From contig NZ_CP047028.1 in NCBI RefSeq assembly GCF_009796865.1, positions 1,612,001 to 1,676,000 on the forward strand: DNA of 64,000 nucleotides, in the 5' to 3' direction. Positions 60,805 through 64,000 of this stretch are shown piece by piece. The notes under the pieces were generated by a model that was not told the DNA's origin, ran no database searches, and saw only the letters and a list, made by a program, of their open reading frames with translations. Source of the DNA: Formosa sp. L2A11. GTDB lineage: Bacteria; Bacteroidota; Bacteroidia; Flavobacteriales; Flavobacteriaceae. How positions within the stretch are numbered: the first letter of the stretch is position 1; each line of letters begins with the position of its first letter. The translations under genes and the position numbers were made by a program.

Positions 60805-61662
60805 ATGAATAAGCAACAAGGCAGCAATAAAAAAGGAAAAGCTTCAGGACGCGGATCAGGAAATTCACGAAATACAAGTTATGCGAGAGGAAATGCGCCT
60901 ATTAAAAAACAGGTTGTTACGAGTACGCCTAAATCAGAAGTTAAAAAATCAAATCCAGGCGAAATTCGTCTAAATAAATATATAGCCAATTCTGGTATCT
61001 GTTCACGTCGAGATGCCGACATGCATATTGCTACAGGTTTGGTTTCGGTAAATGGTAAGATTGTTGTTGAAATGGGATACAAGGTGAAGCTTGATGATGA
61101 AGTGCGTTTTGATGGATCTCGTGTTAACCCAGAAAAGAAAGCATACGTATTATTAAACAAACCAAAAGGTTTTGCAACAACAACCAGCGAAGGAAAAGGA
61201 CGTACTGTAATGGATTTGGTCGCTAATGCAACATCTTCTAAAATTAAGCCAATAGGACGTTTGGGTAGAAACTCTTTAGGATTAATTTTATTTACGAATG
61301 ATGAAGATATAGCAAAGAAATTTACAAATTCTAAAAATGGAGTGCCAAGATTATTTCATATCGAATTAAATAAAAATTTAAAGCACGAAGATTTTACAAA
61401 AATTAAAGAAGGTTTTAAAGTAGAAGGTAAACTTGTCGCTGTAGAAGAGATAAGTTATATCGATAAAGGATCTAAAAAAGAAATTGGGTTAAAAGTCAAA
61501 AATACAGGAAGTACAATTATTCGTACCATTTTTGATTACCTAAAATATGATATCGAAAAGATAGATTGTGTGAGTATCGGGCAGCTTACTAAAAAAGATA
61601 TTCCACGCGGACACTGGAAACACTTAACCGATCAAGAAGTTATTAGTCTTAAGATGCTGTAA
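60805..61662 (+). CDS. RsuA/RluB-family protein lacking the catalytic Asp
   Basis: A 285-aa protein of the RsuA/RluB pseudouridine synthase family. A basic, Gly/Ser-rich N-terminus (about 1-50) precedes an S4 RNA-binding domain (IRLNKYIANSGICSRRDAD, about 52-110). The synthase domain has YVLLNKPKGFATT and the active-site block, but this reads IGRLGRNSLGLILFTND. The family has GRLD there, with the Asp as nucleophile; here it is Gly154 (codon GGT). The rest of the fold, including FHIELNK and the C-terminal IGQL, looks intact and there is no frameshift. It may be an RNA-binding pseudo-enzyme, perhaps in ribosome assembly. Confidence 0.88.
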   Translation: MNKQQGSNKKGKASGRGSGNSRNTSYARGNAPIKKQVVTSTPKSEVKKSNPGEIRLNKYIANSGICSRRDADMHIATGLVSVNGKIVVEMGYKVKLDDEVRFDGSRVNPEKKAYVLLNKPKGFATTTSEGKGRTVMDLVANATSSKIKPIGRLGRNSLGLILFTNDEDIAKKFTNSKNGVPRLFHIELNKNLKHEDFTKIKEGFKVEGKLVAVEEISYIDKGSKKEIGLKVKNTGSTIIRTIFDYLKYDIEKIDCVSIGQLTKKDIPRGHWKHLTDQEVISLKML

Positions 61663-61683
61663 GTCAGTTTGTAAAAGTTTTTC

Positions 61684-61720
61684 AAAAAAATCGAAAAAAA
61701 ACTTTTTTTTTCGATTTTTT
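61684..61720 (+). terminator. Terminator of the RluB-like gene
   Basis: AAAAAATCGAAAAAAAA pairs with a T run, CGA and TTTTTT (arms of about 17 bp, tiny loop). It isolates the next transcript, so the region after it must have its own promoter. Confidence 0.85.
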
Positions 61721-61754
61721 ATAGCACATTTGTATAAGCATTTAGCTGAACATC

Positions 61755-61922
61755 ATGAAAAGTGTTTGTGTGTTCGGGCTTTTGAAACTTAGGAAGTTAT
61801 ATTCAAAAGCAGCTTATCAGATGAGCAACCGAATTTTAGAGCTAACTTCCGCATACTCCATAGTAAAAAGCCAACATGTGTATGGCTTTATTCCTACAAC
61901 CCATAGTCAAATTCAGATTTGA
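61755..61922 (+). CDS. Possible 55-aa leader peptide upstream of arginine decarboxylase
   Basis: An ATG-started frame of 55 codons in the decarboxylase leader, beginning MKSVCVFGLLKLRKLYSKA and ending GFIPTTHSQIQI. It is unusually long and compositionally balanced for AT-rich non-coding DNA and has no low-complexity tract. It overlaps the pseudoknot-capable repeats, so either RNA structure or coding could explain the constraint. The family is not recognised. It may be a regulatory uORF or chance. Confidence 0.35.
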   Translation: MKSVCVFGLLKLRKLYSKAAYQMSNRILELTSAYSIVKSQHVYGFIPTTHSQIQI

Positions 61923-61947
61923 TAGATAGTTAACATATTAAATTACA

Positions 61948-61969
61948 ATATGCAGAATACTCTGCGTAT
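61948..61969 (+). terminator. Terminator-like hairpin just before arginine decarboxylase
   Basis: ATATGCAGA pairs with TCTGCGTAT (one G-U) around the loop ATAC, followed by CTTATTTATTTTTAATT. The 3' arm ends 33 bp before the start codon. A terminator inside a leader would suit attenuation. Confidence 0.45.
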
Positions 61970-62002
61970 CTTATTTATTTTTAATTATTATATCAAAATC
62001 TC

Positions 62003-63403
62003 ATGAATACTAAATACATTGATTTAATTAATCAATCTTTTTATTTCCCACAAGAAGAATTTAAATTAGAAAACAAAACCCTTCAATTTCACGATATAGA
62101 TTTAATGAAATTGGTAGAAGAATATGGTGTGCCTTTAAAGTTTACCTATTTACCACAAATTTCTAATAATATTTCCCGTGCTAAAGGCTGGTTTGCAAAA
62201 GCCATTGAAAAGAACGATTACAAAGGAAAATATAACTATTGTTATTGTACAAAAAGTTCGCATTTTAAACACGTGTTACACGAAGCCTTAAAGAACGATA
62301 TTCATATTGAAACCTCTTCGGCTTTTGATATTGATATTGTTGAAAGTTTAAAGAAAGAAGGTAAAATTACAGATAATACCTATGTTATTAGTAACGGTTT
62401 TAAACGTGCAGAATACATTACTAACATTGCAAGGTTAATTAATAACGGACACAAAAATGCAATTCCTGTAATTGATAATTATGAGGAAATTGATTTGTTA
62501 TCTCAAGAAATTGATGGCAAATTTAATGTTGGTATTAGAATTGCTTCAGAAGAAGAGCCCAAATTTGAATTTTACACCTCTCGTTTAGGAATTGGCTACA
62601 AGAATATAGTACCTTTTTATAACCGTCAGATTAAAGATAATAAACAAGTCGAGCTTAAAATGCTTCACTTCTTTATAAATACAGGAATTCGTGATAATGC
62701 GTATTACTGGAACGAATTAGTAAAATGTTTAAAGGTATATACAGCTTTAAAAAAGATATGTCCAACACTAGATAGTTTGAATATTGGAGGCGGATTTCCA
62801 ATAAAAAACTCTTTAGCTTTTGAATTCGATTACGAATATATGGTAGATGAAATCTTGCATCAAATTAAAATGGTTTGTGAAGAAGAAGAAGTCGATGTGC
62901 CTAATATTTTTACAGAATTTGGTAGTTTTACAGTTGGTGAAAGTGGAGGTGCTATTTATGAAGTATTATACCAAAAACAACAAAACGATCGTGAAAAGTG
63001 GAACATGATAAACTCATCGTTTATTACTACTTTACCAGATACTTGGGCAATTAATAAAAGATTTGTAATGTTACCTATTAATCGCTGGCATGAAAGTTAT
63101 GAACGTGTATTGTTAGGAGGATTAACTTGCGATAGTGACGATTATTATAACAGTGAACAGCATATGAATGCGATTTACTTGCCAAAGTATAATAAAGATA
63201 AACCATTGTATATTGGGTTCTTTAACACCGGTGCATATCAAGAAACTATAGGTGGATTTGGAGGTTTACAACACTGTCTAATTCCGACACCAAAACATAT
63301 TTTAATAGATAAAGACGAAGATGGAAACATCTCGACAAAATTATTTAGTGGACAACAAAAAAGTGAAGACTTACTTAAAATTTTAGGATATCATGAGCAA
63401 TAA
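62003..63403 (+). CDS. speA: Arginine decarboxylase, short fold-III type
   Basis: A 466-aa PLP enzyme with an alanine-racemase-type barrel. The PLP lysine is K84 in YCYCTKSSHF. HIETSSAFDIDIV, LNIGGGFPIKN (phosphate loop) and FTEFGSFTVGESGG follow as in SpeA. It is about 190 residues shorter than E. coli SpeA (about 658) and lacks its helical insertion and C-terminal extension. It would make agmatine from arginine, supported by the overlapping agmatinase gene downstream. The ATG at 62003 fits the length of relatives. Confidence 0.9.
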   Translation: MNTKYIDLINQSFYFPQEEFKLENKTLQFHDIDLMKLVEEYGVPLKFTYLPQISNNISRAKGWFAKAIEKNDYKGKYNYCYCTKSSHFKHVLHEALKNDIHIETSSAFDIDIVESLKKEGKITDNTYVISNGFKRAEYITNIARLINNGHKNAIPVIDNYEEIDLLSQEIDGKFNVGIRIASEEEPKFEFYTSRLGIGYKNIVPFYNRQIKDNKQVELKMLHFFINTGIRDNAYYWNELVKCLKVYTALKKICPTLDSLNIGGGFPIKNSLAFEFDYEYMVDEILHQIKMVCEEEEVDVPNIFTEFGSFTVGESGGAIYEVLYQKQQNDREKWNMINSSFITTLPDTWAINKRFVMLPINRWHESYERVLLGGLTCDSDDYYNSEQHMNAIYLPKYNKDKPLYIGFFNTGAYQETIGGFGGLQHCLIPTPKHILIDKDEDGNISTKLFSGQQKSEDLLKILGYHEQ

Positions 63404-64000
63404 AACGTATGCTGGAATTCCTCAAGAATATGCAAAATTAGAAATCTCTAAAATTGTATTAATTCCAGTGCCCTATGACGGGACAAGTACATGGCAAAAA
63501 GGAGCAGATAAAGGGCCGAAAGCTTTTTTAGATGCTTCCGAAAATATGGAAACTTACGATATTGAAACTCAAACAGAAGTTTACCAACAAGGTGTGTTTT
63601 TAGCAGATGCTGTTACAGAAAACAGTTCGCCAGAAGCTATGGTTGATGCCGTGCATAAAACCACTAAAAAATACATTAAAAAGAATAAGTTTGTTACGCT
63701 TTTTGGTGGCGAACATTCTATTTCTATTGGTAGTATTAGAGCGTTTAATGAATGTTTTAATAATCTAACAGTTTTGCATATAGATGCACATGCAGATCTG
63801 CGTAAAACTTATCAAGGATCTGCTTGTAATCATGCTTGTGCAGTTTATGAGGCTAGCCAGACCACGAACCTAATACAAGTAGGTATTCGTTCTATGGATG
63901 TTAAAGAAACTACTGTAATGGATACAGAAAAAACATATTTTGCACACGAATTAGCCTCTAACGAATTTTGGATGGATAGTGCAATAGATCAGATGACGGG
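63393..64000 (+). CDS. speB: Agmatinase, partial (runs off the window)
   Basis: The first 202 codons of an arginase/agmatinase-family enzyme. The ATG at 63393 overlaps the arginine decarboxylase end by 11 bp in another frame. Visible motifs are PVPYDGTSTWQKGADKGP, the Mn ligand His in FGGEHSISIG and the HIDAHADLR ligand cluster. It would hydrolyse agmatine to putrescine and urea, completing the two-step route. The 3' end lies beyond the window. Confidence 0.93.
   Translation, partial: MSNKTYAGIPQEYAKLEISKIVLIPVPYDGTSTWQKGADKGPKAFLDASENMETYDIETQTEVYQQGVFLADAVTENSSPEAMVDAVHKTTKKYIKKNKFVTLFGGEHSISIGSIRAFNECFNNLTVLHIDAHADLRKTYQGSACNHACAVYEASQTTNLIQVGIRSMDVKETTVMDTEKTYFAHELASNEFWMDSAIDQMT

Follow-up and report, generated by a model that had tools for sequence, protein, structure and literature searches.

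What controls the arginine decarboxylase operon that lies at the end of the window, i.e., the whole stretch of 64,000 nucleotides of Formosa sp. L2A11 DNA analysed here, and what is encoded in the 282 bp that precede it? The initial annotation read this leader as a cis-regulatory RNA, a riboswitch or an attenuator, crossed by a short open frame. Compared across relatives, the same letters of the leader appear to yield both an RNA with a tight fold and a small peptide whose tail is conserved, and it looks like a built-in switch for the decarboxylase, of a kind for which no match was found in Rfam 15. Leader-peptide control and structured RNA switches usually occur separately, but they seem to be combined here in a single ORF.

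The Locus and Its Transcription Start

The locus is framed by the following features:

61720-61732, forward strand: probable promoter -7 element TATAGCACATTTG, of the Bacteroidetes type TAnnTTTG, motif kept in relatives
61721-62002, forward strand: leader, 282 bp between the likely terminator of the upstream rRNA pseudouridine synthase gene and the decarboxylase
62003-63403, forward strand: arginine decarboxylase of the SpeA family (TIGR01273, PF02784, solved chains), the gene thought to be regulated
63393-64000, forward strand: agmatinase-like gene (TIGR01230), overlapping the decarboxylase end and running off the window

By its matches, the decarboxylase is a member of the SpeA family of arginine decarboxylases: it matches PF02784 above the cut-off of that model and TIGR01273 (speA) at 5.1e-47, yet under the model cut-off, and the three solved chains matched at E ≤ 1e-10 are all arginine decarboxylases. 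Arginine is its likely substrate. The agmatinase-like gene matches TIGR01230 at 1.9e-37, below the cut-off, as a partial frame. By eye, an A/T-rich hairpin (61684-61719) is seen 3′ of the rRNA pseudouridine synthase gene and is likely the terminator of that gene.

Every feature named in the initial annotation was found where it had been placed. That annotation knew of no named leader class for this gene, and none was found in Rfam 15 or in the main text of the open-access papers among the matches listed. The Rfam 15 scan gave eight matches for window positions 61400-62400 (E up to 10) and three for five relatives (E up to 5), none of them reaching the gathering score of a known class. The accessible part of the 2010 list of 104 motifs names no such element (PMC2864571), a keyword search did not find it in the main text of a study of 50 genomes (PMC11109978), and the 2017 list of 224 motifs was compared through Rfam only. 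For Flavobacterium psychrophilum, 64 structured leaders are placed in supplementary tables by the part of the report consulted (PMC9723704).

The start of transcription probably lies near 61737-61740, as inferred from the -7 element. Of 97 nonredundant relatives (from 145; 10 more had no anchor or lay too near an end), 61 have a TTTG at -17 to -14 relative to GCTGAAC, and a -7 element of the TAnnTTTG type is described for F. psychrophilum in the accessible text of PMC9723704. With the conserved -7-like motif sitting just upstream, a start downstream of 61890 is unlikely.

A Three-Way Junction with a Loop Pseudoknot

The upstream stretches of relatives were gathered by DNA and protein searches and then aligned. 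The two interleaved repeats, described initially as 9-bp and 8-bp complementary pairs in the order a-b-a′-b′, are, on the covariation seen in these alignments, two of four helices in one three-way-junction fold with a loop pseudoknot:

61742-61747, forward strand: P4 5′ strand UUAGCU (probable), partner 61840-61845, 91.9% of cells paired
61746-61751, forward strand: P0 5′ strand CUGAAC, alternative partner GUUCGG at 61772-61777, weak covariation
61773-61777, forward strand: P1 5′ strand UUCGG, partner 61829-61833, closing the three-way junction, 98.8% paired
61778-61786, forward strand: P2 5′ strand (repeat a), 95.9% paired
61792-61799, forward strand: pseudoknot 5′ strand in the P2 loop (repeat b, core GGAAGU), covarying
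61802-61810, forward strand: P2 3′ strand (repeat a′), covarying with the 5′ strand
61812-61826, forward strand: P3 hairpin, 61812-61817 with 61821-61826, 88.3% paired, double changes in 6/6 pairs
61829-61833, forward strand: P1 3′ strand CCGAA, covarying with the 5′ strand
61840-61845, forward strand: P4 3′ strand AGCUAA (probable), paired as the 5′ strand
61843-61850, forward strand: pseudoknot 3′ strand (repeat b′, core ACUUCC), covarying

With 20 aligned sequences 91.6% of the cells are paired, and double changes are seen in 16 of the 28 pairs. An alignment of 101 sequences, which was fitted to the structure, forms 92.5% of the pair cells and shows compensatory change in 25/28 pairs; none of 500 shuffles reaches any of five measures, and sliding the partners by 1-3 columns lowers pairing to 29-51%. 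The third alignment (123 nonredundant sequences of 151, also used for P0 and the single-pair tests) is free of structure-fitting bias, since it was anchored on the start codon and contains no gaps. Branches of the tree with double changes were counted on it per helix and set against 1000 random placements: 15 for P1 (null mean 1.2, maximum 5), 40 for P2 (10.2, 21), 45 for P3 (14.1, 25) and 11 for the pseudoknot core (1.3, 6), and partners slid out of register gave counts close to the null, with 7 vs 3.2 as the greatest excess. This per-helix count was adopted because the single-pair tree-aware test (Fitch-reassigned null, APC-corrected G scores) gave no pair at E < 0.05, the best being 0.11; at the top of the single-pair list the proposed pairs stand together with a misaligned upstream block.

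The paired segments thus checked in the upstream regions of relatives proved to be conserved, with strong compensatory change. The a/a′ repeat (9/9 paired in the window) exceeds chance, and the interleaved order is a true pseudoknot, by compensatory change on 20, 101 and (tree-aware) 123 sequences. Of the b/b′ repeat, paired 8/8 in the window, the core GGAAGU/ACUUCC held and the outer part did not: the six core pairs are 98.6% paired, all eight 87.9%, and one of the eight is broken in 83/101 sequences. When 61721-62020 was refolded, 0/200 shuffles folded equally well (z -4.4).

The remaining helices are graded lower. P4 is probably real: 91.9% of its cells are paired vs 90.3% in shuffles, and 4/6 pairs change on both sides, in only six such cells. 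P0, which would form around the start codon and is mutually exclusive with P1 and P4, is a possible, weakly supported competing switch helix. All six of its pairs form in 100/123 sequences, a level that on average 19% of shuffled right arms equal; only four cells have a double change, and subtype II of the element (see below) lacks the helix as judged by eye. P0 is kept as an option only, because its letters are conserved but covary weakly, and P4, also thin, is preferred.

A 7-bp hairpin noted at first (61867-61873 with 61883-61889) is present in the window and is not kept in relatives. It overlies coding sequence (SQHVYGF in the window), and as a conserved part it was ruled out by a mean of 3.66/7 pairs in 100 relatives vs 3.38 with swapped arms. 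By eye, no fitting slippery site for programmed frameshifting was seen upstream of the pseudoknot.

Distribution of the Element

A covariance model of the element matches 189/397 genomes of the window's family, identified as Flavobacteriaceae through its named members, and the decarboxylase is present in 269 of the 397 (E ≤ 1e-60). The two go together, since 185 of the 189 carriers own a decarboxylase (Fisher p 2.7e-40, relatedness ignored). Among the 155 loci examined, 19 of which had been found via the decarboxylase, this gene is downstream of the element in 149, once at a distance of 1294 nt. From a draw across the phylum (make-up by family unlisted) 5/395 genomes match, all five Flavobacteriaceae, and with filters off no clear match was seen at L028-L030, three decarboxylase loci that belong to other families within the order. 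Of the 80 named loci closest by decarboxylase, which are no random draw, 60 carry the element at E ≤ 0.01, e.g., in Bizionia, Winogradskyella, Olleya, Algibacter, Aquimarina and Kordia; of 11 decarboxylase loci initially without it, one (L022) holds a diverged copy. No plasmid copies were found.

Two diverged forms were distinguished. Subtype II (L024, L198, L201-L207, L209, L211, L216) has GCATTGCC instead of TTTAGCTGAAC at its 5′ end, and its ORF tails end in ..F-x-F-R-I or similar. In subtype III (L359, L361-L364, L366, L368, L371) most letters are changed and few are shared, and by eye the helices are the same; seven of its eight ORFs stop at TAG, and the eighth, in L361, stops at TGA and has a tail that departs from the strict form defined below.

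At four loci (L039, L099, L102, L165) the element is kept near MKRIIVDYQKL-type genes with no decarboxylase downstream, and in the genomes of L039, L099 and L165 a search for the decarboxylase found none. The tail at L165 is still FEQFRI-stop. Second copies away from the decarboxylase are found in G206 (L189/L192), G240 (L219) and G135 (L218), where the element precedes small proteins that begin in a signal-like manner and have YEDGTYYF or a similar motif in common; of the three, two were scanned and matched no Pfam family above cut-off. The two copies in G206 are divergent and about 230 nt apart. Another second copy (L217, in G379) lies before two genes, a small one of MKRVIVDFKKL type and one that by eye resembles RimK. 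A typical element with decarboxylase is present in an uncultured Campylobacterales MAG record (L296), probably a misassigned bin. Christiangramia-type leaders (L267, L278, L285) are without the element at the threshold used and share another upstream stretch, with a frame ..ILNINLPVDSFDP.NYSLIFS.., that reaches the decarboxylase.

The Leader ORF: RNA First, Peptide Last

The frame noted across the repeats is kept in relatives, above chance expectation:

61755-61922, forward strand: leader ORF of 55 codons, ATG start, UGA stop, frame open in relatives
61875-61922, forward strand: last 15 codons and stop, ending QIQI-UGA, under amino-acid selection by pN/pS and residue counts

An NTG start followed by an open frame through the folded part was found at 155/155 loci (one cut by a contig end) and at 26 of 27 more diverged ones; the exception is the second copy L218, where no ORF was found. 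For the detailed counts 143 of the 155 ORFs were used, the other 12 being off-column (4, later 55-56 codons) or outside 50-64 codons (8). They start at TTG (101), ATG (31) or GTG (11). The stop is UGA in 132/143, as compared with 4/37 ORFs of at least 150 codons in the window and 1/118 in the loci, controls that belong to few gene families and are not independent.

Selection was measured as pN/pS in pairs among 100 nonredundant ORFs that differ by at most 45% in the stretch concerned. In codons 6-32 the ratio is 0.81 in frame vs 0.87 and 0.81 in the other frames, so that nothing points to a role for the amino acids there. For the last 15 codons the values are 0.41 vs 1.46 and 1.75, and it is here that the proposed test of the 55-codon frame showed selection. 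Codons 2-5 (4.9 in frame vs 0.57 and 0.48) are under a constraint on letters. By these ratios the leader gene is mixed, evolving as RNA over codons 6-32 and as protein over the last 15, and selection seems to be split cleanly inside one ORF.

The general form of the tail, seen in most ORFs, is [I/F/L]-x-[I/V]-stop. Of the 100 nonredundant ORFs, 97 end in I or V, the third base of that codon varying, and 94 have I, F or L at the antepenultimate position. Tails vary much among clades (PTTxxQIQI, YWLNPIRI, WALLPIIV, ANIRV). Selected residues in the last ~15-20 positions behind a free N-terminal part are the pattern of arrest peptides.

Two other uses of the ORF have to be weighed here. It might encode a small protein that acts in trans, from an mRNA that is merely structured; a length near 55 amino acids, the conserved start and tail, and a median of 9 K+R and 2 D+E per peptide would suit such a protein. 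We consider this very unlikely, given that codons 6-32 bear no sign of amino-acid selection, that N-terminal parts look unrelated between clades, that the window peptide has no Pfam or NCBIfam match and that the decarboxylase so regularly follows (149/155 loci). Least probable of all the readings is classical attenuation, in which charged Arg-tRNA would be sensed at arginine codons. Arginine is indeed the likely substrate, and the penultimate residue is Arg in 35/100 ORFs, but it is Q in 40/100, the window included, and the window ORF has no Arg-Arg and no run of Arg codons.

Predicted Pairing Between the Leader Stop and the Decarboxylase Start

Three further features lie between the tail and the decarboxylase:

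61918-61924, forward strand: stop-region arm TTTGATA, across the leader stop, one half of a perfect 7-nt inverted repeat
61991-61997, forward strand: start-region arm TATCAAA, just before the decarboxylase ATG, predicted to pair with 61918-61924
61948-61969, forward strand: hairpin followed by a T-rich tract, terminator-like, 1 found vs 0.1 expected in shuffles

Pairing and terminator scans covered 90 of the 100 ORFs; the rest were dropped because their locus contained no decarboxylase or because the gap exceeded or fell short of the limits set. Between leader stop and decarboxylase start region 10.83 pairs are expected vs 4.47 in shuffles. Since base composition alone could favour pairing, start regions were also swapped between leaders; this gives 6.39 expected pairs, and the cognate partner is over the median in 73/90. 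Among 32 leaders that the model does not match at the thresholds used, the values are 10.87 vs 6.66 swapped, with 29/32 above. The p-values of these tests are optimistic (too small), because the sequences are related. Compared in this way, the two arms appear to have changed together. L323 keeps the tail and has no stop-to-start pairing.

The terminator-like stem with its T-rich tract, noted initially, is there in the window, as it would be if the position of the ribosome decided on termination, intrinsic or by Rho, in the stretch that separates the leader from the gene. Stems of this kind occur in 19/90 leaders vs 3.4 expected, which is an enrichment but a minority: the scan found none in 71/90, so that an intrinsic terminator does not look like the general mechanism, and the stems are short and A+T-rich. 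In 73 of these 90 leaders, by contrast, cognate halves pair better than swapped ones from stop to start. Control by transcription attenuation is judged quite unlikely.

The Tail in Leaders Without Recognised RNA

Decarboxylase leaders of Arenibacter and Flavobacterium match the pseudoknot weakly or not at all, and they contain an ORF of ~55-60 codons ending ...FFIPTTEKQIIV or ...EKLQIIYANIRV. A survey covered loci from 77 of the 84 genomes with decarboxylase and without a match to the first model (72 nonredundant), admitting ORFs of 30-90 codons that end 40-115 nt before the gene. The strict tail [ILFV]-[RQ]-[IV]-stop is present in 27/72 leaders, 0.10 being expected from shuffles; of these 27 tails, 24 have Arg in penultimate position, which adds to what could be said for sensing of Arg-tRNA. 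These tails stop at UGA (14), UAG (8) and UAA (5), so that UGA is not general. In the other 45/72 leaders the strict tail was not found, and in some of them the rRNA pseudouridine synthase gene ends nearby. Diverged forms of the RNA are present in part of the set: with filters off, 13/40 short loci score E < 0.05, and pairs are broken in several of them.

This recurrence bears on the view that the leader is a metabolite riboswitch alone, whose pseudoknot domain binds arginine, agmatine or a polyamine and refolds, the frame being a by-product. On comparative evidence an aptamer-like, covarying fold does lie upstream of a pathway gene, as in a riboswitch: a compact junction with pseudoknot, conserved loop letters, a tight link to one pathway gene (185/189 genomes) and, in P0, an alternative to P1 and P4. 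Against these stand the frame kept open at every one of the 155 loci, the weak covariation of P0 and its absence by eye from subtype II. A plain riboswitch is moreover not the best reading because the tail is under amino-acid selection and its terminal motif recurs where no RNA of the kind is recognised, and we regard it as unlikely. Thus, of the cis-regulatory RNA first proposed, the conserved pseudoknot leader tied to arginine decarboxylase remains, and the plain riboswitch does not remain its best explanation.

A Model for the Control of the Decarboxylase

The reading preferred here, probable though by no means certain, is translation attenuation: the arginine decarboxylase operon would be governed by a cis-acting leader that is itself translated. 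The three-way-junction RNA with its pseudoknot lies inside the first ~32 codons of the ~55-codon leader ORF, and the predicted stop-to-start pairing would mask the start region of the decarboxylase. A ribosome that reaches the leader stop and pauses there would cover one arm of this pairing and unmask the start. The tail, placed in the upper exit tunnel, may make the pause conditional by nascent-chain sensing and so set how long the ribosome dwells. The fold, in which P1 begins 18 nt past the first base of the start codon, could gate the number of ribosomes that get through, possibly under the influence of a ligand (arginine, agmatine or a polyamine, for instance). In the window's own lineage the terminator-like stem may add a transcriptional layer. 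Several findings do not sit easily with translation attenuation of the decarboxylase. Clade tails differ much, which is unusual for one arrest peptide that senses one ligand, and L039, L099, L102 and L165 keep the element with no decarboxylase downstream. To these are added the 45/72 leaders in which the strict tail was not found, the tails that stop at UAG or UAA, the missing stop-to-start pairing in L323, the single-pair covariation test that passed no pair, and the constraint on letters in codons 2-5.

A bolder version, which is put forward only tentatively, is a leader with two sensors, in which an ancient, family-wide arrest peptide with the stop signature hydrophobic-[R/Q]-[I/V]-stop would have a ligand-binding pseudoknot aptamer embedded in its coding sequence. 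If this were true, the same RNA would serve first as aptamer and afterwards as template for the peptide, joining RNA and nascent-chain sensing of arginine or polyamines. For what may be a new arrest peptide linked to polyamine synthesis, the tail would offer a minimal signature at the C-terminus, and the natural series, RNA with peptide and peptide without recognised RNA, lets the role of each part be separated. Flavobacterium mRNAs lack Shine-Dalgarno sequences according to the part of PMC9723704 consulted; the element is common in a large family lacking them, and therefore how translation is tuned there becomes testable.

Comparison with Known Systems

The TnaC leader, too, stops at UGA, and we know of no conserved pseudoknot in its ORF. 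As far as the accessible text of PMC8429421 describes it, TnaC has in common with the present leader a peptide tail at the stop codon as sensor, and differs in that it serves tryptophan and the tryptophanase operon. The spermidine riboswitches, variants of SAM-I, likewise place polyamine genes under RNA control (PMC10853860, in the part consulted); they have the SAM-I fold, and no SAM-I match was obtained here with Rfam 15 for the window and five relatives.

Also comparable is the odc1 (uORF-25-1) motif of Alphaproteobacteria, which joins a pseudoknotted RNA to a conserved short ORF with UUG starts before a polyamine-pathway decarboxylase. In the portion of PMC8632094 that was available, it is described as one hairpin with a 5′ pseudoknot, most of which precedes an ORF of 11 codons, with the RBS in the stem; the ORF starts two nucleotides before the start of the gene, which encodes ornithine decarboxylase. 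Unlike odc1, the present element is a three-way junction inside an ORF of 55 codons, and 80 nt separate the end of this ORF from the gene.

The precedent for the proposed mechanism is SpeFL (orf34)-speF of Salmonella and other Gammaproteobacteria, where, in the text available of PMC6386406, the decarboxylase start is masked by an RNA structure until translation of the short ORF opens it. Both systems have a short leader ORF with a UGA stop before a polyamine-pathway decarboxylase, translation being proposed here from comparison, and in both a pairing near the leader stop masks the start, here as a prediction only. The element is nevertheless not the same as SpeFL-speF, since length, Arg codons and phylum differ: the latter has 34 codons with two consecutive Arg codons, involves Rho termination and an ornithine decarboxylase and belongs to another phylum (PMC6386406, same portion), while the present ORF has ~55 codons with no Arg pair in the window. 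And unlike SpeFL-speF as described there, it carries a covarying pseudoknot inside the ORF itself.
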